Shown here: in pieces, positions 49,570 through 64,000 of the stretch
Layout: each line of letters begins with the position of its first letter
Numbering within the stretch: position 1 is the stretch's first letter
Assembly (NCBI RefSeq): GCF_003075525.1
Contig: NZ_QDDR01000001.1
Coordinates: 620,001-684,000, forward strand
DNA: 64,000 nucleotides
Direction: 5' to 3'
Origin: Pararhodobacter aggregans
GTDB lineage: Bacteria; Pseudomonadota; Alphaproteobacteria; Rhodobacterales; Rhodobacteraceae
The notes under the pieces: model-generated
Database searches by the model: none
Told to the model about the DNA's origin: nothing
Seen by the model: only the letters and a program-made list of their open reading frames with translations
Made by a program: the position numbers and the translations under genes

Positions 49570-49866
49570 ATGACCGGTCAACACGCCCGCAGCCTTGAGG
49601 CGATCCTGCAAGACCGCCTGCGGCTCGCGCAGGACATCGCCGCCGCCAATCGCGAGCATCTGCGGCTGGTGCAGATCGCGCGGGGCCTCGAGGTGCTGGC
49701 GCTGAAGGAAGACCGCGACGGCGAGGCGACGGCGGCGCTCGGGGCCGAACAGGAGACCAGCCACCGGGCGCTCGACGACAGTCTCGAAACCCTCAACCGG
49801 CTGGATGCCATGCTGGCGGGCCTCGATGACGAGCTTGCCCGCGCGATGAAAGGACAGATCCGATGA
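49570..49866 (+). CDS. Small coiled-coil protein, unknown
   Basis: A 98-residue protein with heptad-rich helices (LEAILQDRLRLAQDIAAANREH and TSHRALDDSLETLNRLDAML). It has no Cys and no membrane segment. CAGGAGG lies 6 bp before the ATG. It overlaps the following WD40-like gene by four bases, so the two are co-translated. It may be an adaptor binding the beta-propeller. Confidence 0.65.
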   Translation: MTGQHARSLEAILQDRLRLAQDIAAANREHLRLVQIARGLEVLALKEDRDGEATAALGAEQETSHRALDDSLETLNRLDAMLAGLDDELARAMKGQIR

Positions 49867-50999
49867 ACATGGAGAAACCCCCGCAGGCGACGAGCCTCTT
49901 CGAGCTCCTGGCGCGGCGCTGGTCGCTGGGCGCGCCGGTCCGGCAGGTGCTGGCTAATGCCGCGGGCACGGCGGTGGTGGCCCTGCTGGAGGACGGGCAG
50001 CTCGCCTTCCTGCGGATGGAGGATGCCGAGAGCCCGGAAAAGCGCCTGAGGATGGAGCTGGACAGCGGCCGCATGACGATCCGCCCGCGCGAGCAGCCCT
50101 TGCCCGCGCCGCTGTTGAGCGAGGGGCCGGTGGCGGCGCCCGGCCTGCCGGTGGTCCGCTGCGGCGAGCAGGGTTTCGCCTTCGTCCATGCCCGCGGCTC
50201 CGAGGTCTGGCACGCCACCGCGCGCGGCCAATTGCTGCGCAAGGCCACGCTCAACGGCGTGACGATCACCGCGCTGGCCGCCCGGCCGCAGGCGCAACAG
50301 CTGGTCGTGGCGCAGGAGGGCGGGCAGGTCACGCTGCTGAATGAGGAATGGGGCGAGGTGATCGCCACCAGCACGCTGGCGCATCCGGTGGCGCGGCTTG
50401 CGATCTCGGCCGACGGGGCGCGGATCGCCTGCTGGGGGCCGGGGCAGGTGACGATCCTGCGGGGCGACCTCACGGCGCAGGTGCAGGTCGCGGTCGAGGG
50501 CAGCGCGCTCACGCTTGCCTTTTCGCCGGACGGTCGCTGGCTGGCTGGGGGCTGCGCCGAGAAGGCGCTGTTTCTGGTCGATCTGGCGGCGGCAAAGGCC
50601 GACCGGATCGTCGATTTCCCCGACGCGGTGAAGACCGCGGCCTTCTGTGCCGCCTCGAACGCGCTGATCGCTTCGGGCGCCTATCGCGTGGTCGGCTGGC
50701 AGGGGCCGGACCTGCCCTTCGGCGAGCACGGCGGCACCGCGCTTTCCACCGGCCGCCCGGGCCTGATCCCGGTCGAGGTACTGGCCCCTCAGCCCGGCCG
50801 CGCGCTCTGTGCGGTGGGCTATGCCAACGGGCTGGTGGTGCTGGGCCGGATCGGCGAGCGCGACGAGCTGATGCTGGCCGAGGGGCAGGGCAAGCCGGTC
50901 ACGGCGCTGGCCTGGACCCAGGACGGCGCGCATCTGGCGATCGGCGGGGCGGACGGCTCCGTCGCCATCGCCACCTTCCCGAAATCCATGTTCAAATAA
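49863..50999 (+). CDS. WD40-like beta-propeller protein
   Basis: A 378-residue cytoplasmic protein built of WD40-like blades, for example LAISADGARIACWGPGQVTIL, LAFSPDGRWLAGGCAEKALFLVDL and LAWTQDGAHLAIGGADGSVAI. About seven repeats are recognisable, and no catalytic domain is attached. Beta-propellers serve as interaction platforms. It sits between a coiled-coil gene (four-base overlap) and a 59-residue helical gene, with no known partner. Confidence 0.75.
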   Translation: MNMEKPPQATSLFELLARRWSLGAPVRQVLANAAGTAVVALLEDGQLAFLRMEDAESPEKRLRMELDSGRMTIRPREQPLPAPLLSEGPVAAPGLPVVRCGEQGFAFVHARGSEVWHATARGQLLRKATLNGVTITALAARPQAQQLVVAQEGGQVTLLNEEWGEVIATSTLAHPVARLAISADGARIACWGPGQVTILRGDLTAQVQVAVEGSALTLAFSPDGRWLAGGCAEKALFLVDLAAAKADRIVDFPDAVKTAAFCAASNALIASGAYRVVGWQGPDLPFGEHGGTALSTGRPGLIPVEVLAPQPGRALCAVGYANGLVVLGRIGERDELMLAEGQGKPVTALAWTQDGAHLAIGGADGSVAIATFPKSMFK

Positions 51000-51019: not shown

Positions 51020-51199
51020 ATGACCCAAGCCCTTACCAATGAAGAGAAAAGCAAGGACGAATTCTTTCAGGCGCTGGCCCGCGTCGCCGAAGACATGGTC
51101 GAGAAACACGGCAAGGAATTCGCCTCGGGCGCGCTGATCCTGGCCGCGCAATGGGTGGCGCAGAACCGGATCGGCAAAAAGGACGACCCGATGCACTAA
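51020..51199 (+). CDS. Small helical protein (59 aa)
   Basis: A 59-residue charged protein, MTQALTNEEKSKDEFFQALA onwards, with a helix-turn-helix-like helical profile and a basic tail. GAGGCAG lies just upstream. It is 20 bp after the WD40-like gene and its stop overlaps by four bases the convergent gene at 51196-52155. No family is known. Confidence 0.6.
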   Translation: MTQALTNEEKSKDEFFQALARVAEDMVEKHGKEFASGALILAAQWVAQNRIGKKDDPMH

Positions 51200-52155
51200 T
51201 GCCGCGCCGTGGCCCGGGCCTGTGGCGGCTCGGGCGCGGTCAGGCTGTGCAGCTGGTTCACCACAATCGCGTTCATCGGCGCCGCCAGCGCCGCCAGCCC
51301 GCCCGTTCCCTCGGTTCGGGCGGCGGCCCCGGCCTCGATCAGCAGATCGGTGAAGGCGGGTTCGATCAATTGCGCGAAGGCACAGAGTTCATGCACCCGG
51401 AAGGTCGCGAAATAGAGGCTGTCGTCGTTGAGCAGGCTGTCGGGGCCGCGCGTCTCGGGCAGGCGGGTCTGCAACGCATTGCTGTGGACCGCGGCGCCCA
51501 GCGTGGCCAGCACCTGCCGCCGCCAGCCCGCATATTCGGTATCGGCAGAATGGTCGATGCCCACGGCATAGAGGCGTTCGGACACGGTCTTGAAGGCCCG
51601 GCCCCCGGCGATGTGGCGGCGCCAGAAATCGCTCGCCTCCTCGACAGTGCGGCAATCGGCAAAGGTCTGGGCCAGCTTCGGCCGCACCAGCAGCACCAGC
51701 GCCATATCGGCGTCTTCCGACACCGAACGGGCGATCTGCATGGCGGGCATCGGCAGCCCGGTCAGAGCCAGCAGCCGCAGCGCCGCCAGCTGGTCGGTCA
51801 GCCGCGCGGTGAGGCCCGCGAGCCCCTGCCATTGCGCGGCACTGAGGCCGGCGACCTGATGGCCGTGGCCGGCATGCGCCGCGGCATGCAGGGCCCGGAC
51901 CCAGAGCAGGCACTGGTCGAACAGGAACACCAGATCGACGCCCGCGCTGTTCGCCGCCAGTTCCATCCGGGGCACGGGGCGGAAGCCGGGCACCGGCCGC
52001 AGGCCCAGCCGCCAGGCGCGGTCGAAATCGAGGCCGCTGGCCGACCACAGCTGTTTCACCCGCGCCAGAAGCTGGGGCGAGAGGCCGGGGTAGCTGAGTT
52101 CGGGCGGCGCGGTGTCGAGGGGAAGTACGCCGCCGCCGGGATCGGACAAGGTCAT
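51196..52155 (-). CDS. Unrecognised 319-aa helical protein
   Basis: A 319-residue, Ala/Leu-rich helical protein with no signal peptide or membrane helix. Notable features are a His-rich segment (HAAAHAGHGH, about 90-99) and a second half containing VGIDHSADTEYAGWRR and HSNALQTRL. These could supply metal ligands, but no family is recognised. The start at 52155 (MTLSDPGGGV) is taken. It is divergent from rpoN with 95 bp between. Confidence 0.6.
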   Translation of the reverse strand: MTLSDPGGGVLPLDTAPPELSYPGLSPQLLARVKQLWSASGLDFDRAWRLGLRPVPGFRPVPRMELAANSAGVDLVFLFDQCLLWVRALHAAAHAGHGHQVAGLSAAQWQGLAGLTARLTDQLAALRLLALTGLPMPAMQIARSVSEDADMALVLLVRPKLAQTFADCRTVEEASDFWRRHIAGGRAFKTVSERLYAVGIDHSADTEYAGWRRQVLATLGAAVHSNALQTRLPETRGPDSLLNDDSLYFATFRVHELCAFAQLIEPAFTDLLIEAGAAARTEGTGGLAALAAPMNAIVVNQLHSLTAPEPPQARATARH

Positions 52156-52250
52156 CGGCCAGCCATGCGTTGGGTCGGTGCGTGAAGGATAGACTGGCCC
52201 TCGCCGCGATGGCCAGCGCTTTGTGAAGACTGGAACAACAGGGGAAAAGG

Positions 52251-53498
52251 ATGCCTCTAGGCACGCAATTGCGCACCCGTCAGGCACAGGTTTTCAGGAT
52301 GGGGCAGGTGGTGGGCATCCTGCAGATGTCCGCCGGCGAGGTCGAGGATCACCTGACCGATTGCGCCCGGGACAACCCCTTGCTGGTGGTCCGCGCCCGG
52401 CCGCCGATGCGTCTGGGCAATTCCACGACCGAGGCGCTGGAACTGACCGCCGCCGATAGCGCGAGCAGCCTTTACGACCATGCCATGCGGCAATTGGCGG
52501 GGCTTCTGGCGGGCGGCGGGCCGGTGGCGCGGCTGGTCATGGCGCTGATCGAGGATCTGGAGCCTTCGGGCTGGCTGTCGCGGCCAGTGGCGCTGATCGC
52601 CGCCGAGCTGGGGCTCTCGGTCGAGGTGGTGGACAAGGGGCTGGCACTGGTCCAGCGGCGGATCGAGCCCGCCGGGCTTTTCGCCCGCAATCTGGAGGAA
52701 TGCCTGCGGCTGCAGGTGCAGGACCGCGGGCTTTACGACGCCGCCATGGCCCTTGTGCTGCGGCATCTGGCGGTTATGGAAAGGGGCGGGCGGGCGGCGC
52801 TGGTCGCGGCGACCGGGCTCGAGCCCGGGGAGGTCGCGCGCTGCCTCGCCACGCTCCGGCGGCTCGACCCCAAGCCCGGCGCGGCCTTTGTCCGGGATCC
52901 GACGCTGATGCGCGAGCCCGATGTGCGGGTGACGCCGGGGGCCGAGGGCTGGCAGGTCGAGTTCGCCTTCGAACGCGAGGCGCAGATCGGCATCCTGCCC
53001 ATGGGCCCCGGCGCCGCCACGCCCGCCCTGCGCGAGGCACAGGCGCAGGCGCGGGCCCTGAGACAGGCGCTGGCGCTCCGGCAATCGGCGATCCGGCGGG
53101 TCATGGCGGTGCTGGTCGCGCGGCAGGGCGGCTATTTCAGGGGCGGGGCCGAGGCGCTGGTGCCGATGACCATGGCCGAGATCGCCGCCGAGACCGGGTT
53201 TCACGCCAGCACGGTCAGCCGGGTCCTGGCGGGCCTCCTGATCGAGGGGCCGGGCGGCATCGTCGCGGCGCGCGACCTCTGCGTCGGGGCGGCCTGCGCG
53301 GACGGCGCCTCGAAACCCAGGGTCATGGCCCGGCTGCGCGCCTGGATCGCCGCCGAGGATCCGGGCAACCCGTTGTCGGATCAGGACCTTGCCGAGCGGC
53401 TGGCGGCCGAGGGCATGGCCGTCTCGCGCCGTGTCGTCGCCAAATACCGGCAGGAGATCGGCAAGGCCCCCGCCGCGCAACGCCGCCAGTCGGCCTGA
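52251..53498 (+). CDS. rpoN: Sigma-54 factor (RpoN paralogue)
   Basis: A 415-residue alternative sigma factor. Region I is short (LRTRQAQVFRMGQVVGILQMS...DNPLLVV) and the acidic region II is nearly absent. The core-binding region covers about 65-290, the HTH about 300-335 (MAEIAAETGFHASTVSRVLAG), and the RpoN box SRRVVAKYRQ lies at 392-401 (canonical ARRTVAKYRE). It binds core RNA polymerase and -24/-12 promoters but needs an enhancer-binding ATPase. It lies directly before the monooxygenase operon, with a -24/-12 site between. Rhodobacter species often carry several specialised rpoN copies; this is probably one. Confidence 0.93.
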   Translation: MPLGTQLRTRQAQVFRMGQVVGILQMSAGEVEDHLTDCARDNPLLVVRARPPMRLGNSTTEALELTAADSASSLYDHAMRQLAGLLAGGGPVARLVMALIEDLEPSGWLSRPVALIAAELGLSVEVVDKGLALVQRRIEPAGLFARNLEECLRLQVQDRGLYDAAMALVLRHLAVMERGGRAALVAATGLEPGEVARCLATLRRLDPKPGAAFVRDPTLMREPDVRVTPGAEGWQVEFAFEREAQIGILPMGPGAATPALREAQAQARALRQALALRQSAIRRVMAVLVARQGGYFRGGAEALVPMTMAEIAAETGFHASTVSRVLAGLLIEGPGGIVAARDLCVGAACADGASKPRVMARLRAWIAAEDPGNPLSDQDLAERLAAEGMAVSRRVVAKYRQEIGKAPAAQRRQSA

Positions 53499-53523
53499 CC
53501 CTTTCCCCTTCGATGCCCCGAGC

Positions 53524-53552
53524 GGCGCGGTCCCCGGATCGCGCCGTTTCCT
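53524..53552 (+). terminator. Terminator after rpoN
   Basis: GGCGCG (53524-53529) pairs with CGCGCC (53540-53545) across a 10-nt loop and is followed by GTTTCCTT. It separates rpoN from the sigma-54-dependent operon. Confidence 0.65.
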
Positions 53553-53563
53553 TATGCTGCGAC

Positions 53564-53641
53564 CGCTAACGTAACAGCCGCGCTGCAGCATGTAACGTTG
53601 CGTTAACACCCCCGTGGACAGCGCTGTAACGTTTTTTGACA
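53564..53641. promoter_or_regulatory. Candidate enhancer: three TGTAACGTT-type repeats
   Basis: Copies lie at 53568-53576 (reverse strand, TGTTACGTT), 53591-53599 (TGTAACGTT) and 53625-53633 (TGTAACGTT). The last two are each followed about 7 bp later by ACA. They lie 130-200 bp upstream of the -24/-12 promoter, the usual place for sigma-54 activator sites. The cognate activator gene is not in the window. Confidence 0.7.
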
Positions 53642-53771
53642 CCCCGTCCGGCGGCGCCATCGGCGGGCACCACGCCAGCCGGATCCTGCAAAAAAATCAT
53701 GCATTTTTAAATCACGTAAATCAGGGGCTTACCGCCGCAGCCCCGGTTTTCCGGCGGTGTCGGGCCGCCTC

Positions 53772-53798
53772 TGGAACGGCTCTTGCAGGAAATAGGAC
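53772..53798 (+). promoter_or_regulatory. Sigma-54 (-24/-12) promoter of the monooxygenase operon
   Basis: CTGGAACGGCTCTTGCA at 53771-53787 matches the consensus TGGCACG-N4-TTGCA at all but one position. The invariant GG (53773-53774) and GC (53785-53786) are 10 bp apart. Transcription should begin near 53798. The sequence lies downstream of a sigma-54 gene and candidate enhancer repeats, which supports the assignment. Confidence 0.88.
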
Positions 53799-54032
53799 AG
53801 AACAGGGGAACAGCCGGGACACCGGCGACGGCCCCAAGAACGAAGGACAGGGAGAAGCGGTCGCGGACCGCGGGCCAGGGAGGAGACCCGGCGCGCGCCA
53901 TTCAAGACCGGGAGCCTCAACCTTTGCCGCCAGCCGGCGCCGCGGATGCAAGCCCGTGGCGTCCAACCGCAACGGTGAAAGCCGACAACCGCGGCCCCGA
54001 GGGGGCTGCCGAGCTGTAAGGAGGCTCACGGC
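53799..54032 (+). promoter_or_regulatory. Long structured 5' leader of the monooxygenase mRNA
   Basis: About 235 nt of transcribed leader. It is GC-rich with several possible stems (for example CCGGGACACCGG and GCCGGCGCCGCGG) and ends in TAAGGAGG 11 bp before the prmA ATG. No known riboswitch motif was recognised. Short ORFs cross it, but none has a ribosome-binding site. Confidence 0.45.
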
Positions 54033-55697
54033 ATGACATTGACGCTCAACAAGATCACGTCCCAACGGGGTATCTCGGTCGGGGAAGCCACCAAGAAGAT
54101 CTCGGATCTTGGGTGGAACCCGACTTATGTGCAGGAAGCGGCGACCTTCCCCACCGACTACAAGATCACCAAGGCCCCGCGCGACCCGATGAAGCAGGTC
54201 CTGCGGTCCTACTTCCCGATGCAGGAAGAAAAGGACAACCGGGTCTACGGCGCGCTGGACGCGGCGCTGCGCGGCGACATGTTCCGCAACGTGGAACCGC
54301 GCTGGGTCGAATGGATGAAGCTGTTCCTGGCGATCATCCCCTTCCCGGAAATCTCGGCCGCGCGCTCGATGGCCATGGTCGCCCGCCTGGCACCGGGCGA
54401 AGACCTGCGCACCGGCTTCACCATGCAGATGGTCGACGAGTTCCGCCATTCCACGATTCAGATGAACCTGAAGAAGTGGTACATGGAGAACTACATCGAC
54501 CCCGCGGGCTTCGACATCACCGAGGAAGCCTTCGGCAAGTGCTATGCCACCACCATCGGCCGCCAGTTCGGCGAGGGTTTCATCACCGGCGACGTGATGA
54601 CCTCGGCCTGCATGTACCTGACCGTGGTCGCGGAAACCGCCTTCACCAACACGCTGTTCGTGGCCATGCCCTCGGAAGCCGCCCGCAACGGCGATTACGC
54701 GCTGCCCACGGTGTTCCTGTCGGTGCAATCGGATGAATCGCGCCACATCGGCAACGGCCATTCGCTGCTGATGGCCGCGCTGAAGGAGCCGGAGAACCAC
54801 CTGCTGCTGGAACGCGACCTGCGGTATGCCTTCTGGCAGAACCACGCCATCGTCGACGCCGCCATCGGCACGCTGATCGAATACGGCACCACCAACCGCG
54901 ACAAGGACAAGGAATCCTACGCGGAAATGTGGCACCGCTGGATCTTCGAGGACTATTACCGCACCTACATGCTGCCCTTGGAAAAGTACGGCATCAAGGT
55001 CCACCACGACGACGTGCACGAGGCCTGGAACCGGATCACCAAGAAGAACTACGTCCACAAGGTCGCCCAGTTCTTCGCCGTCGGCTGGCCGGTCAACTTC
55101 TGGCGCATCGAGGCCCAGACCGAGAAGGACTTCGACTGGTTCGAGGCCAAATACCCGGGCTGGTACGCCGAATTCGGCGAGTTCTGGAAATGGTACGCCA
55201 AGCTGTCGAAGCCCGGCGAGACGGTCATCACCTTCAACCAGGACACCGGCTACGTCTATCCGCACCGCTGCTGGTCGTGCCTGGTGCCCTGCCTGATCCG
55301 CGAGGACATGGTGGTCGATCAGATCGACGGCAAATGGCACACCTTCGCCCATGATCTGGACCGCTGGACCGCCGTCGAGGCCTTCTCGGACGAATACCAG
55401 GGCCGGCCGACCCCGGCGATGGGCAAGTTCTCGGGCAAGCGCGAATGGGAGACGGTCTATGACGGCTGGGATCTCGCCGACGCGATCACCGACCTGAACT
55501 TCGTGCGCGAAGACGGCAAGACGCTGGTGCCGCAGCCGCATCTGCGGTTCGACAACAAGGACATGTGGACGCTGGACCATGTGCGCGGCCACACGCTGCG
55601 TTCGCCCTTGAACATGCTGCGTGCCATGTCGGACGCCGAGCGCGAGGCGCATGTCGCCGAGTACCGCAAGGGCTTCACCATCCGTCCCTGCAACTGA
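54033..55697 (+). CDS. prmA: Soluble di-iron monooxygenase hydroxylase, alpha subunit (propane 2-monooxygenase-like)
   Basis: A 554-residue catalytic subunit of a soluble di-iron monooxygenase. The six iron ligands are all visible: Glu106 (FPEIS), Glu136 and His139 (DEFRH), Glu201 (VAETAF), Glu235 and His238 (DESRH). With the beta subunit, reductase and coupling protein it inserts one oxygen atom into propane, acetone, phenol or a related small substrate. The cluster order (alpha, reductase, beta, coupling) equals prmABCD and mimABCD of actinobacteria (group 5). The substrate here is not proven. GGAGG lies 11 bp upstream. It is the first gene of a sigma-54-type operon. Confidence 0.93.
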   Translation: MTLTLNKITSQRGISVGEATKKISDLGWNPTYVQEAATFPTDYKITKAPRDPMKQVLRSYFPMQEEKDNRVYGALDAALRGDMFRNVEPRWVEWMKLFLAIIPFPEISAARSMAMVARLAPGEDLRTGFTMQMVDEFRHSTIQMNLKKWYMENYIDPAGFDITEEAFGKCYATTIGRQFGEGFITGDVMTSACMYLTVVAETAFTNTLFVAMPSEAARNGDYALPTVFLSVQSDESRHIGNGHSLLMAALKEPENHLLLERDLRYAFWQNHAIVDAAIGTLIEYGTTNRDKDKESYAEMWHRWIFEDYYRTYMLPLEKYGIKVHHDDVHEAWNRITKKNYVHKVAQFFAVGWPVNFWRIEAQTEKDFDWFEAKYPGWYAEFGEFWKWYAKLSKPGETVITFNQDTGYVYPHRCWSCLVPCLIREDMVVDQIDGKWHTFAHDLDRWTAVEAFSDEYQGRPTPAMGKFSGKREWETVYDGWDLADAITDLNFVREDGKTLVPQPHLRFDNKDMWTLDHVRGHTLRSPLNMLRAMSDAEREAHVAEYRKGFTIRPCN

Positions 55698-55775: not shown

Positions 55776-56834
55776 ATGACAGACGTGTACAAGGTCCGGC
55801 TGGAGCCGGTCGGCGTCGAGTTCGAGGTCGAGGAAAACGAGACCATTCTCAACGCGGCCTTCCGCCAGGGCATCGCCCTGCCGCACGGCTGCAAGGAAGG
55901 CCAGTGCTCGGCGTGCAAATGCGTCCAGCTCGATGGCGAAACCGAGATGCTGAAATACTCGACCTTCGCGCTGAACGACGGCGAGAAGGACAGCGGCCAT
56001 ATCCTGATGTGCCGGGCGCTCGCCTACAGCGATGTGGAGATCGAGCTTCTGAATTATGACGAAGAGGTTCTGTCCAAGTCCATTCCGGTGAAGCAATTCG
56101 CCGGCAAGATCGTCGATTTCCAGAAACTGACCCACGATATCCGGGGGGTGCAGATCGCGCTGGACGCGCCTCTCAAATTCTGGGCGGGCCAATATGTCGA
56201 CATCACCGTCAGGACGGAAAAAGGGGAGGAGATTACGCGCTCGTTCTCCATGGCAAATCCGCCGAGCGAAACCCAAAACCTCGGCTTCATCATCAAGAAA
56301 TACCCCGACGGACGGTTCTCCAACGAACTCGACGACGGCGGAATCCGGGCCGGAGCCGAGGTGCGCGTCGAAGGACCCTTCGGGATGTGCTTCCGACGCG
56401 AGGAGCGGCAAGGACCCGTGATCCTGGTCGGTGCGGGCTCTGGCATGTCGCCGGTCTGGTCGATCCTCAACGATCAGGTGACCAGCGGCGAGACGCGGCC
56501 GGTGCTGTTCTTCTACGGCGCGCGGACCCAGGCCGACCTCTTCAAGCTCGACGAGATCAAGGCCCTGACCGACGCCCACCCGGAGGTCGAATTCATCCCG
56601 GTCCTCAGCCATGCGGGCGATGACGCGGGCTGGACCGGCGAGCGCGGCTTTGTCCACGAATGCGTGGACCGGCGGCTCAAGGCGCTGGGCTGCGAAGGGC
56701 AGGGCGATGTCTATGCCTGCGGCCCGCCGCCGATGATCGACGCGCTGACGCCCGTCCTCTTCATGAACGACTTCGATAGCGAACGCATCTTCTACGACAA
56801 GTTCACGCCCACTTCCGGTTCTTCGGGCCACTGA
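55776..56834 (+). CDS. prmB: Monooxygenase NADH reductase component
   Basis: A 352-residue electron-transfer protein. The N-terminal 2Fe-2S ferredoxin domain has Cys39, Cys44 and Cys47 (HGCKEGQCSACKC) and Cys79. The FAD-binding motif RSFSMA lies at 155-160 and the NAD-binding GAGSGMSP at 219-226, with a C-terminal CGPPPM. It carries electrons from NADH to the hydroxylase di-iron site in the cytoplasm. The start has GGGAGG 7 bp upstream. Confidence 0.94.
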   Translation: MTDVYKVRLEPVGVEFEVEENETILNAAFRQGIALPHGCKEGQCSACKCVQLDGETEMLKYSTFALNDGEKDSGHILMCRALAYSDVEIELLNYDEEVLSKSIPVKQFAGKIVDFQKLTHDIRGVQIALDAPLKFWAGQYVDITVRTEKGEEITRSFSMANPPSETQNLGFIIKKYPDGRFSNELDDGGIRAGAEVRVEGPFGMCFRREERQGPVILVGAGSGMSPVWSILNDQVTSGETRPVLFFYGARTQADLFKLDEIKALTDAHPEVEFIPVLSHAGDDAGWTGERGFVHECVDRRLKALGCEGQGDVYACGPPPMIDALTPVLFMNDFDSERIFYDKFTPTSGSSGH

Positions 56835-56881: not shown

Positions 56882-57943
56882 ATGCCAGCAACTTCCAGTT
56901 CCGTGGGATCCGGCGCCGCCGGTGACGCGATCTTCGTCGGCTCGAACAGCCGCAAATACAATTACTTCGAGCCGCGTGGCAAACGCGCCACGCATTACGA
57001 GGACGTCACCGTCGACGTCCAGCCCGACCCCGAGCGCTATCTGATCCAGGACTGGATCATCGAATTCGAGGGCGGCAAGGGGGGCGGCGCCTATCGCAAG
57101 GACAACACCGCGGCGCTGTCGTCGAACTGGCACGCCTTCCGGGCGCCCGACCAGGAATGGGAACGCACCCATTACCAGCGCCAGTCCAAGATCGAGACCA
57201 TGGTGCAGGCGGTGATCGCCAATGCCCGCAAGGCCGGCGCGCCGCGCGCCTTCGACAAGGCCTGGCAGAAGATCCTGCAAAAGCATCTGGGCGCGTGGAA
57301 ACACGCCGAATTCGGCCTCGGCACCTCGCTCATGCAGGCGCAGCGCTACGGCTACACGCAGATGATCAACAACGCGACGTTGACCAACTCGTCCTACAAG
57401 ATGCGCCTCACGCAGGACATCACCCTCTATCTGGCCGAAATCGGCATGGATATCGAGGGCTGGGACGACGAGCTGGGCAAGCGGACCTGGCTGGAAGACC
57501 CGGTCTGGCAGCCCTGCCGCGAGGCGGTCGAGACGATCATGGGCTGCGAGGATTACCTCGAGCAGTATTTCGCCATCAACATCGTCTTCGAGCCGCTGGT
57601 GGGCGAGCTGATCCGGTCCGGGTTCTTCATGCAGGCGGCGGCGGCGAACAACGATTTCATCACGCCCCCCGTCGTCTCGGCCGCCGAGGCCGATTACGAG
57701 CGCAATCTCGCGAACACGGTCGACCTGATCTACCTGCTGGCCCATGACGAGAAGCACGGCGCCCACAACCGCGCGCTGTTCGGCGCCTGGCTGAAAAAGC
57801 ACCGCGCCCTGGCCGAGAAAGCCGCCCAGGCGCTGCAGCCGATCTGGTCGCAGCCCCATTCCAAGCCCGTGTCGTTCGAGGATGTGAAAGCCGTGAGCCA
57901 AGAGCGCATCGGCCAGATCCTCCGCGAGCTGGGTCTCAGCTAA
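56882..57943 (+). CDS. prmC: Monooxygenase hydroxylase, beta subunit
   Basis: A 353-residue helical subunit of the ferritin-like fold that lacks the full iron-ligand set and stabilises the alpha subunit. Family features include DWIIEFEGGKGGGAYRKDN and NIVFEPLVGELIRSG. GGGAGG lies 7 bp upstream. It is 47 bp after the reductase gene and 20 bp before the coupling-protein gene. Confidence 0.92.
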   Translation: MPATSSSVGSGAAGDAIFVGSNSRKYNYFEPRGKRATHYEDVTVDVQPDPERYLIQDWIIEFEGGKGGGAYRKDNTAALSSNWHAFRAPDQEWERTHYQRQSKIETMVQAVIANARKAGAPRAFDKAWQKILQKHLGAWKHAEFGLGTSLMQAQRYGYTQMINNATLTNSSYKMRLTQDITLYLAEIGMDIEGWDDELGKRTWLEDPVWQPCREAVETIMGCEDYLEQYFAINIVFEPLVGELIRSGFFMQAAAANNDFITPPVVSAAEADYERNLANTVDLIYLLAHDEKHGAHNRALFGAWLKKHRALAEKAAQALQPIWSQPHSKPVSFEDVKAVSQERIGQILRELGLS

Positions 57944-57963: not shown

Positions 57964-58332
57964 ATGTCTACCACCGCTCGCGATTCCTCGAAGCAGAACA
58001 TCTTCAAGTCGATGAAGGACATCACCTTCGAACAGACGATCTCGCATCAATGCGGCGTCACCATGAACGACTCGGTCGAGGCCCGCGCCATCGCCGAATT
58101 CATGGGCCAGGACCCGAAGGTGACGGTGACCTACAACCCCGCCACGATCCGCGTCGACGGCGAGGGCAAGCTGGTCTTCAAGATGGACGAGATCAGCGAA
58201 TACCTCGGCCGCGAGATGACCGCCGAGATCTTCGAGGTGAACACCTCCACCCATTACGGGCGGATGGTCCGCGTCGATGACAACACGGTCATCCTCTACG
58301 GCAACATGGACGACGTGTTCGAATACATCTGA
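57964..58332 (+). CDS. prmD: Monooxygenase coupling/effector protein (MmoB/DmpM family)
   Basis: A 122-residue cofactor-less regulatory protein. It binds the hydroxylase and controls substrate and oxygen access. The MmoB/DmpM fold covers most of the length, with NDSVEARAIAEFMGQDPKVTV and FKMDEISEYLGREMTAEIFEV. It completes the four-part enzyme. A strong hairpin follows its stop. Confidence 0.92.
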   Translation: MSTTARDSSKQNIFKSMKDITFEQTISHQCGVTMNDSVEARAIAEFMGQDPKVTVTYNPATIRVDGEGKLVFKMDEISEYLGREMTAEIFEVNTSTHYGRMVRVDDNTVILYGNMDDVFEYI

Positions 58333-58401: not shown

Positions 58402-59481
58402 ATGGCTGCGATGATGAAGGCCGCGGTTTTCGTGGAAAAGGGGCGCATCGTTCTGGAGGACAAGCGCATCCCCGATGTCGGACCCAATGACGCGCTGGTG
58501 CGCGTCACCACCACCACGATCTGCGGCACCGATATCCATATCCTCAAGGGGGAATACCCGGTCGAGAAGGGGCTGACCATCGGCCACGAGCCGGTCGGCG
58601 TGATCGAGAAGCTGGGCTCGGCCGTGACCGGTTTCCGCGAGGGCCAGCGGGTGATTGCCGGGGCGATCACGCCCTCGGGCTGGAGCCACGCCTGCCTTTG
58701 CGGCTATTGCTCGCAGGACGGGGCCGGGACCAAGCACGGCTGGAAGGCCATCGGCGGCTGGAAATTCGGCAACACCATCGACGGCTGCCAGGCGGAATAC
58801 GTGCTGGTGCCCGATGCGATGGCCAATCTGGCGCCGATTGCCGACGGGCTGACGGATGAAGAGGTGCTGATGTGCCCCGACATCATGTCCACGGGCTTCG
58901 CCGGCGCCGAGAATGGCGGCATCAAGATCGGCGACACGGTGGCGATCTTCGCCCAGGGGCCGATCGGCCTGTGCGCCACAGCCGGGGCCAGGCTGATGGG
59001 CGCGAGCCGCATCATCGCCGTTGACGGCATCCCCGAACGGCTGGCCATGGCCCGCAAGATGGGCGCCGACGAGGTGGTCGACATCAAGGCCTCGAACGAC
59101 CCGGTGGCGGCGATCATGGAGCTGACCGACGGCCGCGGCGTCGATGTCGCGATCGAGGCGCTGGGCCTGCAATCGACCTTCGAATCCGCGCTCAGGGTCA
59201 TCCGGCCGGGCGGCACGCTGTCCAGCCTCGGGGTCTATTCGACCGATCTGCGCATCCCGCTCGACGCCTATGCGGCGGGCCTGGGCGAAAAGACCATCCG
59301 CACCGCGCTCTGCCCGGGCGGCAAGGAACGGATGCGGCGGATGATGGATGTGGTCCGCTCGGGCCGCGTCGACATGAAAAGCCTCGTCACGCATCGCTTC
59401 ACCCTCGACCAGATCGAGGATGCCTACGAGCTCTTCGGGAACCAGCGCGACGGTGTCCTGAAGGTCGCGATCACCACCTAA
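58402..59481 (+). CDS. Zn-dependent secondary-alcohol-type dehydrogenase
   Basis: A 359-residue medium-chain dehydrogenase. Catalytic zinc ligands Cys41 (ICGTDIH), His62 and Glu63 (GHEPVG) are present, and the later DIMSTGFAGAE resembles the secondary alcohol dehydrogenases of Clostridium beijerinckii and Thermoanaerobacter. The structural zinc Cys4 loop is missing, as in that group. It probably oxidises 2-propanol to acetone, the product step after propane 2-hydroxylation. It belongs to the monooxygenase operon. Confidence 0.88.
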   Translation: MAAMMKAAVFVEKGRIVLEDKRIPDVGPNDALVRVTTTTICGTDIHILKGEYPVEKGLTIGHEPVGVIEKLGSAVTGFREGQRVIAGAITPSGWSHACLCGYCSQDGAGTKHGWKAIGGWKFGNTIDGCQAEYVLVPDAMANLAPIADGLTDEEVLMCPDIMSTGFAGAENGGIKIGDTVAIFAQGPIGLCATAGARLMGASRIIAVDGIPERLAMARKMGADEVVDIKASNDPVAAIMELTDGRGVDVAIEALGLQSTFESALRVIRPGGTLSSLGVYSTDLRIPLDAYAAGLGEKTIRTALCPGGKERMRRMMDVVRSGRVDMKSLVTHRFTLDQIEDAYELFGNQRDGVLKVAITT

Positions 59482-59513: not shown

Positions 59514-60536
59514 ATGTACAAGACCCCCGACGGCAAAGAGATCTTCGTGCTGGACGGCCATGTCCATTTCTGGGACGGCAGCCCCGAGAACCAGTCGAAC
59601 ATCCACGGCAAGCAGTTCATCGACTGTTTCTACGCCTATCACACCAACCTCAGCCCCAAGGAAGAACTCTGGGCCAAGGCGCGGTTCGAGAAGTACACCG
59701 AGGACGACATCTACCGCGACCTGTTCGTCGACGGGCCGGATGACATGGCGATCATCCAGTCGACCTATCTGAAGGATTTCTACAAGAACGGCTTTTCGTC
59801 CATCGAGCGCAGCACCTCGATGGCGCGCCGCCACCCCGAGCGGTTCATCGTCAACGGCTCCTTCGATCCGCGCGACGGCGAGAAGGCGCTGGAATACATC
59901 CACTACATGAAAGAAACCTTTGATATCAAAGGGGTGAAGATGTACACGGCGGAGTGGAACGGCGACAGCAAGGGCTGGGCGCTGAACGATCCCTCGGCCT
60001 ACAAATGCTTCGAACTCTGCGACAAGCTGGGCATCCGCAACGTCCATGTCCACAAGGGCCCGACCATCATCCCGCTGTCGAAGGATGCCTTCAGCGTCGA
60101 TGACGTCGATTACGCCGCGACCGATTTCCAGAACCTCAACTGGATCGTCGAACATTGCGGCCTGCCGCGTCTCGATGATTTCTGCTGGATCGCCACGCAG
60201 GAGACCAACGTCTATGCCGGTCTGGCCGTGGCCATGCCCTTCATCCATACCCGCCCGCGCTATTTCGGCGAGGTGATGGCGGAACTGCTGTTCTGGATCG
60301 GCGAGGACAAGATCCTGTTCGGTTCGGATTACGCGATCTGGACGCCGAAATGGCTGGTCGAGAAGTTCTGGAACTACCAGATCCCCGAGGATATCGCCGC
60401 CGAGCGCGGCGTGCAGCTGACCGATGCGGTCAAGGAGAAGATCCTCGGCCTCAACGCCGCCCGGCTCTATGACATCGACGTGGCGGCCAAGCGGGCTCAG
60501 CTGGCCGGCGCCCCGGTCCAGATCGCCGCGGAGTGA
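59514..60536 (+). CDS. Amidohydrolase-family protein of the monooxygenase cluster
   Basis: A 340-residue amidohydrolase-2 TIM-barrel protein. The metal motif DGHVHFW is near residues 14-20, with VHVHKGP mid-chain and FGSDYAIWTPKW near the C-terminus. Amidohydrolases of this type are recurring members of prm/mim clusters, with undefined substrates. GTAGGAGG lies 6 bp upstream. It is 32 bp after the dehydrogenase gene. A role in product handling or in metal/cofactor assembly is possible. Confidence 0.85.
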   Translation: MYKTPDGKEIFVLDGHVHFWDGSPENQSNIHGKQFIDCFYAYHTNLSPKEELWAKARFEKYTEDDIYRDLFVDGPDDMAIIQSTYLKDFYKNGFSSIERSTSMARRHPERFIVNGSFDPRDGEKALEYIHYMKETFDIKGVKMYTAEWNGDSKGWALNDPSAYKCFELCDKLGIRNVHVHKGPTIIPLSKDAFSVDDVDYAATDFQNLNWIVEHCGLPRLDDFCWIATQETNVYAGLAVAMPFIHTRPRYFGEVMAELLFWIGEDKILFGSDYAIWTPKWLVEKFWNYQIPEDIAAERGVQLTDAVKEKILGLNAARLYDIDVAAKRAQLAGAPVQIAAE

Positions 60537-60541
60537 GGCCG

Positions 60542-61345
60542 ATGACCGTCGCCCCCCTGATCGCGGAACTGGAGTTCGATGTCTGGGAACGCCTCGAGGC
60601 GGTGACGGACCCGGAGCTTGACGAACCCATCACCGAGATGGGTTTCGTCGAGCGCGTGACGCTCACGGGGGACAGCCGGGTCCGCATCGAGTTCCGGCTG
60701 CCCACCTATTGGTGCTCGCCCAATTTCGCCTTCCTCATGGCCTTCGGCATCCGGCGCGAGGTCGCCCGGCTGCCCTGGGTCAAGGGGGTCGAGGTCCAGC
60801 TTCAGGACCATTGCTTCGGCGAGCAGGTGAACGAGGGCGTGAACAGCGGCCGCGCCTATCACGAGGTCTTCGCCGAATATTGCGACGGCGCGGATCTGGC
60901 CGAGGTCGAGGCGAAATTCCTGGCCAAGGCCTTTGACCGGCGGCAGGAATCGGTCCTCTCGGGCCTTCTGGCGCAGGGGCGGACGCCGGGGGCCATCACC
61001 CGCATGCGGCTGGGCGAGCTGGCCGAGGTGACCTTCGGCGGCGAGGAAGCGCGCGCGCAACTGCCGCGCTACCTGTCGCTGCTGGCCGAGCGGGGCCTTG
61101 CCCGGGGGCCGGAGGCTCCGGCCTTCGTCACCTGGGAGGGCGCGCTCGTCACCGAGGCGGGTTTCGCCGACCATGTCCAGCGCCTGCGTTCGACGCGGAT
61201 CAACATGGAGTTCAACGGCGCCATGTGCCGGGGCCTCGCCGCGACGCGCTACAAGGAAGTCGAGATCGGGCCGGAGGGACCGACGCTTGTCGACTTCATC
61301 CAGGGGCGGGTGCCGCCCCGGGAAGGGGCGGCTCAGCGCGCCTGA
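60542..61345 (+). CDS. DUF59/MIP18-family protein of the monooxygenase cluster
   Basis: A 267-residue protein. The N-terminal MIP18-like domain (about 10-90) carries DPELDEPITEMGFV and a Cys at 58 (YWCSPNFAF). MIP18 proteins act in iron-sulfur or di-iron assembly, so it may help metallate the hydroxylase. The rest is helical and unclassified. The ATG at 60542 is taken; a GTG at 60533 overlaps the previous stop. It is tightly linked to the amidohydrolase gene. Confidence 0.8.
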   Translation: MTVAPLIAELEFDVWERLEAVTDPELDEPITEMGFVERVTLTGDSRVRIEFRLPTYWCSPNFAFLMAFGIRREVARLPWVKGVEVQLQDHCFGEQVNEGVNSGRAYHEVFAEYCDGADLAEVEAKFLAKAFDRRQESVLSGLLAQGRTPGAITRMRLGELAEVTFGGEEARAQLPRYLSLLAERGLARGPEAPAFVTWEGALVTEAGFADHVQRLRSTRINMEFNGAMCRGLAATRYKEVEIGPEGPTLVDFIQGRVPPREGAAQRA

Positions 61346-61412: not shown

Positions 61413-63044
61413 ATGGCTAAACTCATGGTGCATGGCGAGGCGGCGCGGCAAAGCCTCGCCCGGGGCGTGGCCCGGCTGGCGGCGGCGGTGGAACCGACGC
61501 TGGGACCGAAGGGCATGAACGCCATGGTCGACCGCCCGGTCGGCACGCCGATGGTGACCCGCGACGGCGTCAGCATCGCCAGCGAGATCGAGCTGACCGA
61601 CCGGTTCGAGAACATGGGCGCGCAGGTCGTGCGCGAAGTCTCGATGCAGACCAACGACGTGGCCGGCGACGGCACCACCACCGCCATCGTGCTGGCCAAT
61701 GCGCTGGTGCAGGGCGGCGTCAAGCTGACGGCCGAGGGCGTCGCGCCGGTCGATCTGTGCAAGGGCATCGACCTGGCGGTGCAGCGGATCCTGACGGCGC
61801 TGGACGAAAGCTCGCGCGATTGCGCCGATCACCCGGAATATCTGCAAGCCGTGGCCCGGGTTTCAGCCACCGATGCGAAGCTCGGCGCGCTGGTGGCCGA
61901 GGCCTATCAGCGGGTCGGGCGCGATGGCGTCATCTCGGCCGATTTCGGCGTGACCATCGACACGACGATGGAGGTGGTCGAGGGCATGTCCTTCGAGCGC
62001 GGCTATATCTCGCATCACATGGTCACCGACCGTGACGCGATGGAAGCGGTGCTGCGCAACCCGCTGATCCTGATGACGGATCAGAAGATCCTGAAGCCCG
62101 AGGTTCTGGCCAATGCCCGCCGCATCGCCGATGACGAGGGCCGCCCGCTGATGATCATCGCCGAAGAGATCGCGCCCGAGGTGGTGATCTCGCTTCTGGA
62201 TGGCGGCGGCGCCGGGAAATACCTGATCGTCCATCCCCCGGAATACGGCCATTGGCGCACGGCGATGCTGGATGACCTCGCGATCCTGACCGGCGGCGAG
62301 GTTCTGGCCCGCGATCTGGGCAAGAAGATCGAGAACGTCACCCGGGCGCAACTCGGCGGGGCGGAGATCGTCCGCTCCCATGCCTCGGGCACCAGCGTAT
62401 TGAAAGGGCAGGGCGATCCCGCCGCCATCACGGCCCGGCGCGCGCAGGTGCAGCGCCAGCATGACGTGGCGCCGCCGAACGTGGAGAAGGACAAGCTGCG
62501 CGAGCGGCTGTCGAAACTGACCGGCGGCAGTGCCATCATCTATGCGGGCGGCTTCACCCCGGTCGAGCAGAAGCGCACCATCCAGCTGGTCGAGGACGCG
62601 CTCTGCGCCGTCAAGGCGGCGGCCGAGGATGGCGTTGTGGCCGGCGGCGGCACGGCGCTGGCGCAGATCGCGCCCTGCCTCGACGGACTCACGCCCGAGG
62701 GCGATGCGGCCAAGGGCGTGGCGCTGGTCCGCCAGATCCTGACCCAGCCCCTGCGCCGCATCGCCCGCAACGCCGGGGCGGATGTGGAAAGCGTGGTTTC
62801 CCGGGTGACCGGCGGGGCGGCGGGCAGCGGCTATGACGCCGCGACGGGCACCTTCGGCGACATGTTCGCGGCCGGGATCATCGACCCGGCTCGGGTGCCG
62901 GCCAGCGCGCTGGTCAACGCCGCCTCGGTCGCCACGCTGATCCTGACCACCGAGACGCTGGTCGCCAGCCTCGGCGAGGGGGAACCCGACCCGACCGAGG
63001 GCCCGGCGCTGGGCGGCGGTGCCGAACTTCTGGGCCGCAAGTGA
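61413..63044 (+). CDS. groEL: GroEL-type chaperonin, monooxygenase-dedicated paralogue
   Basis: A 543-residue group I chaperonin. The ATP-binding motif NDVAGDGTTTAIVL is intact, as are FENMGAQVVREV and DGVVAGGGTALAQIAP. The N-terminus (MAKLMVHGEAARQSL) and the C-terminus differ from housekeeping GroEL; in particular the GGM-repeat tail is missing (it ends LLGRK). No groES is next to it. Actinobacterial mimABCD clusters need a similar chaperonin (MimG) to fold the hydroxylase, and this gene occupies the same place. GGGAGGAAG lies 3 bp before the ATG. Confidence 0.92.
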   Translation: MAKLMVHGEAARQSLARGVARLAAAVEPTLGPKGMNAMVDRPVGTPMVTRDGVSIASEIELTDRFENMGAQVVREVSMQTNDVAGDGTTTAIVLANALVQGGVKLTAEGVAPVDLCKGIDLAVQRILTALDESSRDCADHPEYLQAVARVSATDAKLGALVAEAYQRVGRDGVISADFGVTIDTTMEVVEGMSFERGYISHHMVTDRDAMEAVLRNPLILMTDQKILKPEVLANARRIADDEGRPLMIIAEEIAPEVVISLLDGGGAGKYLIVHPPEYGHWRTAMLDDLAILTGGEVLARDLGKKIENVTRAQLGGAEIVRSHASGTSVLKGQGDPAAITARRAQVQRQHDVAPPNVEKDKLRERLSKLTGGSAIIYAGGFTPVEQKRTIQLVEDALCAVKAAAEDGVVAGGGTALAQIAPCLDGLTPEGDAAKGVALVRQILTQPLRRIARNAGADVESVVSRVTGGAAGSGYDAATGTFGDMFAAGIIDPARVPASALVNAASVATLILTTETLVASLGEGEPDPTEGPALGGGAELLGRK

Positions 63045-63101
63045 CGCCTTCCCGCCGTCCCGGGCGCGGGGCGGCGGCCATTCCCGGAAAGGATGAGAGA
63101 G

Positions 63102-64000
63102 ATGAAAGCAGCGAGACTCTACGAATACGACCCCGAGATGAACGTCCAGCTCAAGATCGAGAACGTCGCGGCGCCGACCATCACCGGCCCGAACGAGGTG
63201 ATCGTCAAGGTGGGCGCGGCGGGCCTGTGCCGCACCGACCTCCATATTATCGAGGGGGTCTGGCGCGAGATCATGGACACCCACGGCAACCTGCTGCCCT
63301 ATATCATGGGGCACGAGAACGCGGGCTGGGTCGAGGATGTCGGCAGCGCCGTGACCTCGGTGAAGCCCGGCGATGCGGTCATCTGCCACCCGCACCGCAG
63401 CTGCGGCATCTGCCTCAACTGCCGCTATGGCCATGACATGTATTGCGACCACGGCCTCTTCCCTGGGCTGGGGCTGGACGGCGGGTTCGCCGAGTATTTC
63501 AAGACCAACGAAAGCTCGGTCATCAAGCTGAACACCGGGATCACGCCGCTCAGCGTGGCGCCGATGGCCGATGCCGGGATCACCGCCTATCGCGCCGCCA
63601 AGAAGGCCGCGAAGCTGCTGCGGCCGGGCGCCTATGTGCTGCTTCTGGGCATCGGCGGGCTGGGCCATATCGCGCTGCAGGTCCTGAAGCACATGAGCGG
63701 CGCGCGGGTCATCGCGGTGGATCGCGAGCCCGGCGCGCAGGTGCTGGCCCGCGAGTTGGGCGCCGATTTCGTGCTGGATGGCGGGCCCGACCTGCTGACG
63801 CAGGTGGCCGACATCACCGGCGGCGGCGCGCATGTGGTGATCGACTTCGTGGGCGAGCACGGGACCGAGAACCTCTGCTGGCAGATGCTGCGTCAGGGGG
63901 GCGACCTGATCATGGTGGGCTATGGCGGCACGATCCAGGTGCCGACGCTGGACCTCGTCTCGCGTGAGATCCGCATCGGCGGCAGCCTCGTGGGCGATTA
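63102..64000 (+). CDS. Zn-dependent alcohol dehydrogenase (3' end outside window)
   Basis: At least 299 residues, open at the window end. Catalytic zinc ligands Cys43 (GLCRTDLH) and His71/Glu72 (GHENAGW), and structural zinc Cys101, Cys104, Cys107 and Cys115 (CGICLNCRYGHDMYC) are present. The NAD motif GIGGLGHIALQVLKH follows. It differs from the dehydrogenase at 58402 by having the structural zinc loop, so the cluster has two distinct alcohol dehydrogenases. It may oxidise the primary alcohol or a later intermediate. GGAAAGGATGAGAG lies upstream. Confidence 0.9.
   Translation, partial: MKAARLYEYDPEMNVQLKIENVAAPTITGPNEVIVKVGAAGLCRTDLHIIEGVWREIMDTHGNLLPYIMGHENAGWVEDVGSAVTSVKPGDAVICHPHRSCGICLNCRYGHDMYCDHGLFPGLGLDGGFAEYFKTNESSVIKLNTGITPLSVAPMADAGITAYRAAKKAAKLLRPGAYVLLLGIGGLGHIALQVLKHMSGARVIAVDREPGAQVLARELGADFVLDGGPDLLTQVADITGGGAHVVIDFVGEHGTENLCWQMLRQGGDLIMVGYGGTIQVPTLDLVSREIRIGGSLVGD

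Follow-up and report, generated by a model that had tools for sequence, protein, structure and literature searches.

A prm-type monooxygenase operon of Rhodobacterales with a probable sigma-54 factor of its own

The window that we analyzed is a stretch of 64,000 nucleotides from Pararhodobacter aggregans (G000:C1:620001-684000; genome of 5.08 Mb in 32 contigs), and a gene cluster in it for small-hydrocarbon oxidation appears to come with its own sigma-54 and with a matching activator and promoter. Judging from sequence comparison, the rpoN gene directly ahead of this operon is probably a dedicated sigma-54 gene, whose product would form a self-contained circuit with the prm -24/-12 promoter and with an activator of the GAF-AAA-Fis type encoded nearby. 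The first-pass annotation of this DNA had described an rpoN paralogue, proposed as dedicated, followed by a near-consensus -24/-12 site and a full prmABCD-type cluster, and had suggested that the activator may lie beyond 64 kb; the genes, the site, and the position of the activator were borne out, and the genome search and RpoN tree that it called for returned one more copy, on contig C3, and put the window RpoN in a clade of prm-adjacent RpoNs (hereafter clade-type).

The open reading frame at 52251-53498 (forward strand, 415 aa) is a complete and intact sigma-54 gene, with Pfam matches to Sigma54_DBD (PF04552, 1.5e-36) and Sigma54_CBD (PF04963, 8.5e-30). Region I (AID, PF00309), which carries a 4-residue deletion, gives a weak match of 0.0005 and 20.3 bits, below the cut-off of 23.8, and the RpoN box reads SRRVVAKYR, the commonest form elsewhere being ARRTVAKYR. 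From its family membership, the protein is predicted to direct -24/-12 transcription with an ATP-dependent activator. The genome has two rpoN genes, the other being on C3 (matches at 217047-218096), so the window copy is a paralogue; the C3 product has a region I length and RpoN box of the usual form, and its gene is flanked by an ABC ATPase gene on one side and by hibernation-factor-like and PTS-like genes on the other, named from our reading of the sequence. Among the other genomes, two candidates for extra rpoN genes (G330 C76 and G080 C20) were rejected, as PF04552 gave only 22 and 20 bits and the RpoN profile built here gave 18-19 bits. The gap between rpoN and prmA is 534 bp and ends at 54032, the end coordinate in the first-pass annotation and the last base before prmA; a scan of window positions 52100-54100 found no sigma-70-like promoters or terminators.

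Downstream, the gene set of a prm/mim-type di-iron monooxygenase is complete (alpha, reductase, beta, coupling, GroEL, and dehydrogenase) according to Pfam and to synteny in plasmid records. All on the forward strand and assigned by Pfam, the genes run from the prmA-type hydroxylase alpha subunit (54033-55697, Phenol_Hydrox) through the prmB-type reductase (55776-56834; Fer2, FAD, and NAD domains), the prmC-type hydroxylase beta subunit (56882-57943, Phenol_Hydrox), the prmD-type coupling protein (57964-58332, MmoB_DmpM), a zinc alcohol dehydrogenase (58402-59481), an amidohydrolase (59514-60536), an FeS_assembly_P protein (60533-61345), and a GroEL-like chaperonin (61413-63044, Cpn60_TCP1) to a second zinc alcohol dehydrogenase, which starts at 63093 and runs past the window end at 64000 (L015:13093-14145). 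The prm naming is by homology only, and propane or another short alkane is a putative substrate. Upstream of rpoN lie a WD40-repeat protein gene (49863-50999, forward strand, Pfam WD40-type matches), with a homologue in 16 of 17 prm loci and none in the Methylocella stretch, and a gene for a small conserved protein of 59 aa (51020-51199, forward strand, no Pfam match), with a homologue in 15 of 17 and none in the Bradyrhizobium and Methylocella stretches; the WD40 gene adjoins prm clusters without rpoN too. A gene for a 319-aa protein (51196-52155, reverse strand, no Pfam match) is divergent from rpoN and was found in 11 of the 17 loci, namely all nine clade-type loci compared (98 residues only in G239), Gemmobacter fulvus, and G083. 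Ten of these 11 loci have a linked rpoN.

The predicted promoter, TGGAACGGCTCTTGC at 53772-53786 on the forward strand, has an A at what we take to be position -23 and differs from the consensus TGGCACGNNNNTTGC by one mismatch. The motif alone is weak evidence, with 20 matches at up to two mismatches in the window versus 31 expected, which is not above chance; the window promoter is credible because a site is conserved ahead of prmA, with up to two mismatches and 140-360 bp upstream, in 17 of 18 prm clusters versus 3.5% of 720 shuffles. The Ponticoccus site has three mismatches. With sites taken in alignment register, which also decided between two candidates of equal mismatches in G383 and G051 (the second ones being TGGCAT at -301 and GGGCAC at -305), the promoter reads TGGAAC or CGGAAC in nine of the 10 clade-type clusters and TGGCA in the other nine of the 18. 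Further upstream, we propose two putative activator-binding sites on the forward strand, TGTAACG-TTG-CGTTAACA at 53591-53608 and TGTAACGTTTTTTGACA at 53625-53641, from their conserved TGTAAC/GTTACA half-sites. Such half-sites number 41 across the 18 prm upstream regions versus 1.2 +/- 1.0 in shuffles, and they occur in 15 of these regions, mainly at -400 to -480; the strict form was found in none of the Bradyrhizobium, Methylocella, and G082 regions. Across the whole window genome, TGGAACN5TTGC has nine sites versus six in a reversed control, a count that neither proves nor excludes other targets.

The 5′ leader of prmA (53836-54032, forward strand) is conserved as well, and its last 113 nt (53920-54032) begin with ACCTTTGCCG, which is present in 16 of 18 clusters, 67-159 nt before prmA. 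The 10 clade-type leaders fold into a common structure at -35.1 kcal/mol; of its 27 pairs, eight are changed on both sides, a covariation reached by none of 500 shuffles and by no slid version, and the ribosome-binding sequence AAGGAGG sits in the loop and stem of the last hairpin. When all 16 leaders with the two conserved motifs were folded together, no common structure resulted (energy 0.0), as the six non-clade leaders abolish it, and the covariance model matches two non-clade leaders (E 3e-4 and 2e-3). Searched against 394 genomes, the model had matches in 12, of which eight were strong, all before prmA and all among the model-building sequences; it had no match in the other four prm genomes. 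The weak matches (E 5e-4 to 5e-3) were in G057, G121, G140, and G359, genomes without prmA, and are probably due to chance. A search of window positions 53480-54100 with Rfam gave no match at threshold and one below-threshold miRNA match on the opposite strand. The segment at 53920-54032 is a possible cis-regulatory RNA.

The activator gene starts 3.6 kb beyond the window end (G000:C1:687600-689663, equal to L015:17600-19663) and encodes a 687-aa protein with GAF, AAA, and Fis (HTH_8) domains by Pfam and a GAFTGA motif, which makes it the candidate cognate partner of the window RpoN. The window genome has 12 PF00158 matches, of which 10 could be aligned and two carry G[AS]FTGA, the linked activator and a REC-type GSFTGA protein on contig C9 (G000:C9:262292, L202:3833-5245). 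The latter has the domain order reported for AprX of Cereibacter sphaeroides and is a possible partner of the C3 rpoN product. In the six genomes where the prm-linked rpoN is the sole rpoN, G[AS]FTGA is present in only six of 31 PF00158 proteins (E<=1e-15), a single prm-type activator in each genome, the other 25 including near misses such as GAFAGA and GAFPGA. These prm-type activators are encoded within ~16 kb of prmA, with the exception of G361, where the gene is elsewhere on the same plasmid. We also observed two AAA proteins without GAFTGA that are annotated as sigma-54 regulators (L093:4614-6815 and L092:6992-9004), one of them encoded directly beside the rpoN of Gemmobacter fulvus.

RpoN of the window type is supported as tied to prm by its distribution over 394 genomes of the same family from 393 genera, where we took E<=1e-100 as the cut-off for prmA and E<=1e-10 for rpoN. 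At these levels prmA is present in 12 genomes and rpoN in 128, leaving 266 without rpoN, and every prm genome has rpoN versus 116 of the 382 others (Fisher p 9.6e-7). In 10 of the 12 prm genomes an rpoN lies within 6 kb of prmA, either directly upstream of it and on its strand (G000, G080, G082, G125, G239, G330, G345, and G383) or as a divergent copy (G051 and G361); in the other two, G083 and G130, the only rpoN is canonical and not linked to prm. The linked copy is the sole rpoN in six of the 12, the clade-type G080, G082, G330, G345, and G383 and the divergent-copy G361, all at 99-100% completeness. A search with the window RpoN, in which up to four candidates were scored per genome, gave eight genomes above 340 bits, all eight with prmA directly downstream, and a next match of 219 bits, so that none of the 382 prm-negative genomes had a clade-type RpoN above 340 bits. 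G222, from the same genus as the window genome, had neither prmA nor a prm-type RpoN in our searches. Other clade-type carriers are Ponticoccus alexandrii plasmid p-SCP4 and Primorskyibacter flagellatus, and divergent linked rpoN genes are found on Gemmobacter fulvus p2 (by length and position, the plasmid that is C3 in G361) and Paracoccus aminophilus pAMI4. Outside Rhodobacterales, none of seven plasmid-borne prm clusters (Aminobacter, Bradyrhizobium, Methylocella, Rhizobium, Caballeronia, Azospirillum, and Skermanella) had rpoN in flanks of 12-15 kb, and six of the seven had the activator; within the sampled clusters, linkage of a sigma factor to prm is confined to Rhodobacterales.

We collected 89 RpoNs, left out a fragment (L168) and a duplicate of L048 (L147), and built a quick tree from the remaining 87, which came from 60 stretches of the longer match list and from linked, plasmid, and contig copies. 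Ten prm-adjacent RpoNs, those of the eight family genomes, the Ponticoccus plasmid, and Primorskyibacter, group together in a single clade with SH-aLRT 100, nested in a set of 29 sequences (96) that also contains the three divergent prm-linked RpoNs. From the glutamine of region I to the leucine of LLQMS, all 10 clade members have 14 residues, a 4-residue deletion, while the same span has 18 residues in 75 of the 77 other RpoNs, 16 in one, and 20 in one. The threonine of the RpoN box is present in none of the 10 versus 72 of the 77, and box position 4 of the clade is V in seven and I, M, and A in one each. The linked divergent copies of G361, G051, and Paracoccus aminophilus fall outside the clade and keep the threonine. 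As described in PMC7057263, the RpoN box binds the -24 element and the bEBP loop makes its main contact with region I, which places the two marks of the clade where RpoN meets the promoter and the activator.

The promoter follows the same division, as an A at -23 goes with V, I, or M in the box in nine clade clusters and a C at -23 goes with T or A in six clusters (A in G082; T in G361, P. aminophilus, G051, G083, and G130). Over these 15 clusters the pairing has a Fisher p of 2e-4 if they were independent, but they are not, and the promoter/box match may come from one or two changes. Because clade members share ancestry, linkage and correlated changes amount to few evolutionary events and not to ten. 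G082, on a poorly placed branch of the clade, has the region I deletion and still the promoter TGGCAC. By best tblastn segments, identity to the window copy is 46-57% for clade RpoNs, 92-95% for PrmA, and 58-69% for the activator, the last with no match in the Primorskyibacter stretch and with a Ponticoccus stretch that ends early. Taken together, sequence signs of RpoN specialization, two in the protein (region I and RpoN box) and one in the promoter, are supported.

Three RpoNs outside the clade have V at box position 4, those of G046, G282, and G254 (L194, L195, and L196), each with the box SRRV and each encoded at the end of a polyamine-ABC-transporter-like operon. By our reading of the sequence, these operons include an aldehyde dehydrogenase gene in two of three and an amidotransferase-like gene in all three. 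In G254, an activator with a PAS match and GAFTGA is encoded ~6 kb upstream of the operon-embedded rpoN; short extra stretches around the rpoN genes of G046 and G282 yielded none. As these operons also hold rpoN, the data suggest that operons of this family repeatedly capture private sigma-54 copies.

We propose that the activator uses its GAF domain to detect a signal, which is probably a substrate or a product in the oxidation of short-chain alkanes or alcohols, and that the protein binds the TGTAACG sites ~150-180 bp upstream of the promoter, as their conservation suggests. Its GAFTGA loop would then engage a region I shortened by four residues, about one helical turn, and the holoenzyme with the window RpoN would melt TGGAAC-N5-TTGC and transcribe the operon. 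Most likely, a module that carries its own sigma-54, activator, and promoter lets the operon work whatever the sigma-54 status of the host, and the prm sigma factor would later have drifted to a matched and narrow specificity. Binding, regulation, inducer, and orthogonality of the module are what we infer from these comparisons. The module looks portable, supplying the factor that its promoter needs, because it is found on plasmids and in genomes without another rpoN. We lean slightly towards the combined reading, in which a mobile, orthogonal sigma-54 system with a re-specified -24 helix and activator interface serves one activator and one promoter, travels with a gas-oxidation operon, and installs sigma-54 transcription in bacteria otherwise without it; by linkage, RpoN4 and the fourth bEBP RSWS8N_04525 would be the counterpart pair for the prm operon of C. 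sphaeroides.

It is unlikely that the adjacent RpoN is instead the general sigma-54 of its host, lying by chance beside prm and serving other promoters too. Where it is the sole rpoN, any sigma-54 promoter must use it, but among the PF00158 proteins of those six genomes at E<=1e-15, an intact G[AS]FTGA loop is confined to the prm-type activator. The tie of clade-type RpoNs (above 340 bits, up to four candidates scored per genome) to prm-positive family genomes also speaks against a general role. We consider it quite improbable that the prm promoter is served by the C3 RpoN or by both proteins, with the adjacent copy redundant or hitch-hiking. Clusters without a linked rpoN outside Rhodobacterales, and the unlinked canonical RpoNs of G083 and G130, fit such redundancy, but the TGGAAC/CGGAAC promoter is found only in clusters with a clade-type RpoN, and the C3 RpoN, ordinary in region I and box, could have its partner in the REC/GSFTGA activator.

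The low identity of clade RpoNs beside that of PrmA, and a deletion in a key region, could also point to a decaying, non-functional protein whose divergence reflects relaxed constraint. We give this very little credence, as all 10 reading frames are open, as long as a complete RpoN requires, and have the same deletion, each of the eight genome copies can be aligned with the window copy nearly end to end without stops (Pfam domains were assigned for the window copy only), and five clade-type genomes have no other rpoN that we found to serve the conserved promoter. The dedicated factor thus stays our preferred reading, although its first description as a private sigma-54 insulated from the global RpoN needs amendment. 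The private part is backed by the second rpoN, by prm linkage in 8 of 394 genomes, always directly upstream of prmA, and by the marks of specialization. The insulation rationale does less well, since with the linked rpoN alone in half of the prm genomes there is no global RpoN there to be insulated from; insulation may be only part of the reading, and self-sufficiency in hosts without sigma-54 explains more.

Sigma-54 is usually seen as a global factor with many activators. The variants described here seem to have shrunk in nature to a single sigma with a single activator and a single operon, their protein and promoter having changed to match, and they offer a natural series for studying how sigma-54 specificity is rewired. 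They also hint at what an orphan RpoN in a model organism may do, provide candidate orthogonal parts for laboratory gene circuits, and would explain how bacteria without sigma-54 take up a sigma-54-dependent catabolic operon.

Related systems are known. Actinobacterial mim/prm clusters have a similar gene set and a MimR-like activator, and to our knowledge their hosts generally do not have sigma-54. Regulation of soluble methane monooxygenase by RpoN, MmoR, and MmoG was reportedly described by Stafford in 2003. As portrayed in PMC5874634, this system of Methylosinus and Methylocella has, as here, a di-iron operon, a -24/-12 promoter, a sigma-54 activator, and a GroEL-like protein, and the Methylocella activator has a GAF domain, as does the prm activator. 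Unlike the window, the plasmid cluster of Methylocella tundrae has no rpoN within 12 kb. The open-access literature that we searched, with most subscription papers outside its scope, did not report an arrangement of rpoN or sigma-54 with propane monooxygenase or mimABCD.

Specialized RpoNs are already known from C. sphaeroides, whose strain 2.4.1 we take to be G051. This genome has four rpoN genes and ten PF00158 matches. Five of these matches carry G[AS]FTGA, namely a putative NifA-like protein with GAF and HTH_8, two proteins likened from their gene positions to FleQ (Pfam reported no HTH for it) and to FleT (417 aa), a protein of the REC/GSFTGA type, and the prm-linked GAF protein. Its prm-linked RpoN has the box ARRTVAKHR and lies outside the clade. 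PMC11999139 describes four rpoN genes and five bona fide bEBPs, with RpoN3 and AprX (REC type) assigned to xrpA and RpoN4 and RSWS8N_04525 without an assigned role, and the word monooxygenase is absent from its main text. Strain WS8N of that study has deletion alleles for each of rpoN1-4 and for RSWS8N_04525. By elimination among these bEBPs and rpoN genes, and not by gene number, RSWS8N_04525 probably encodes the activator linked to prm, and rpoN4 is probably the linked sigma-54 gene. According to PMC11999139 and PMC7277832, RpoN1, RpoN2, and RpoN3 resemble the prm case in that several RpoNs share a cell and each one studied pairs with a bEBP of its own; the gene for RpoN2 is located within fla1, the locus that it serves, and the -11 promoter base aids specificity. 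The window genome likewise has more than one rpoN (two) and a candidate GAFTGA activator, and six of its prm relatives have one rpoN. The C. sphaeroides RpoNs serve nif, fla1, and xrpA (PMC11999139, PMC7277832), whereas the prm clade is set apart by its shortened region I, its altered RpoN box, and its changed base at -23, and in five of the eight clade-type genomes no other rpoN was found.
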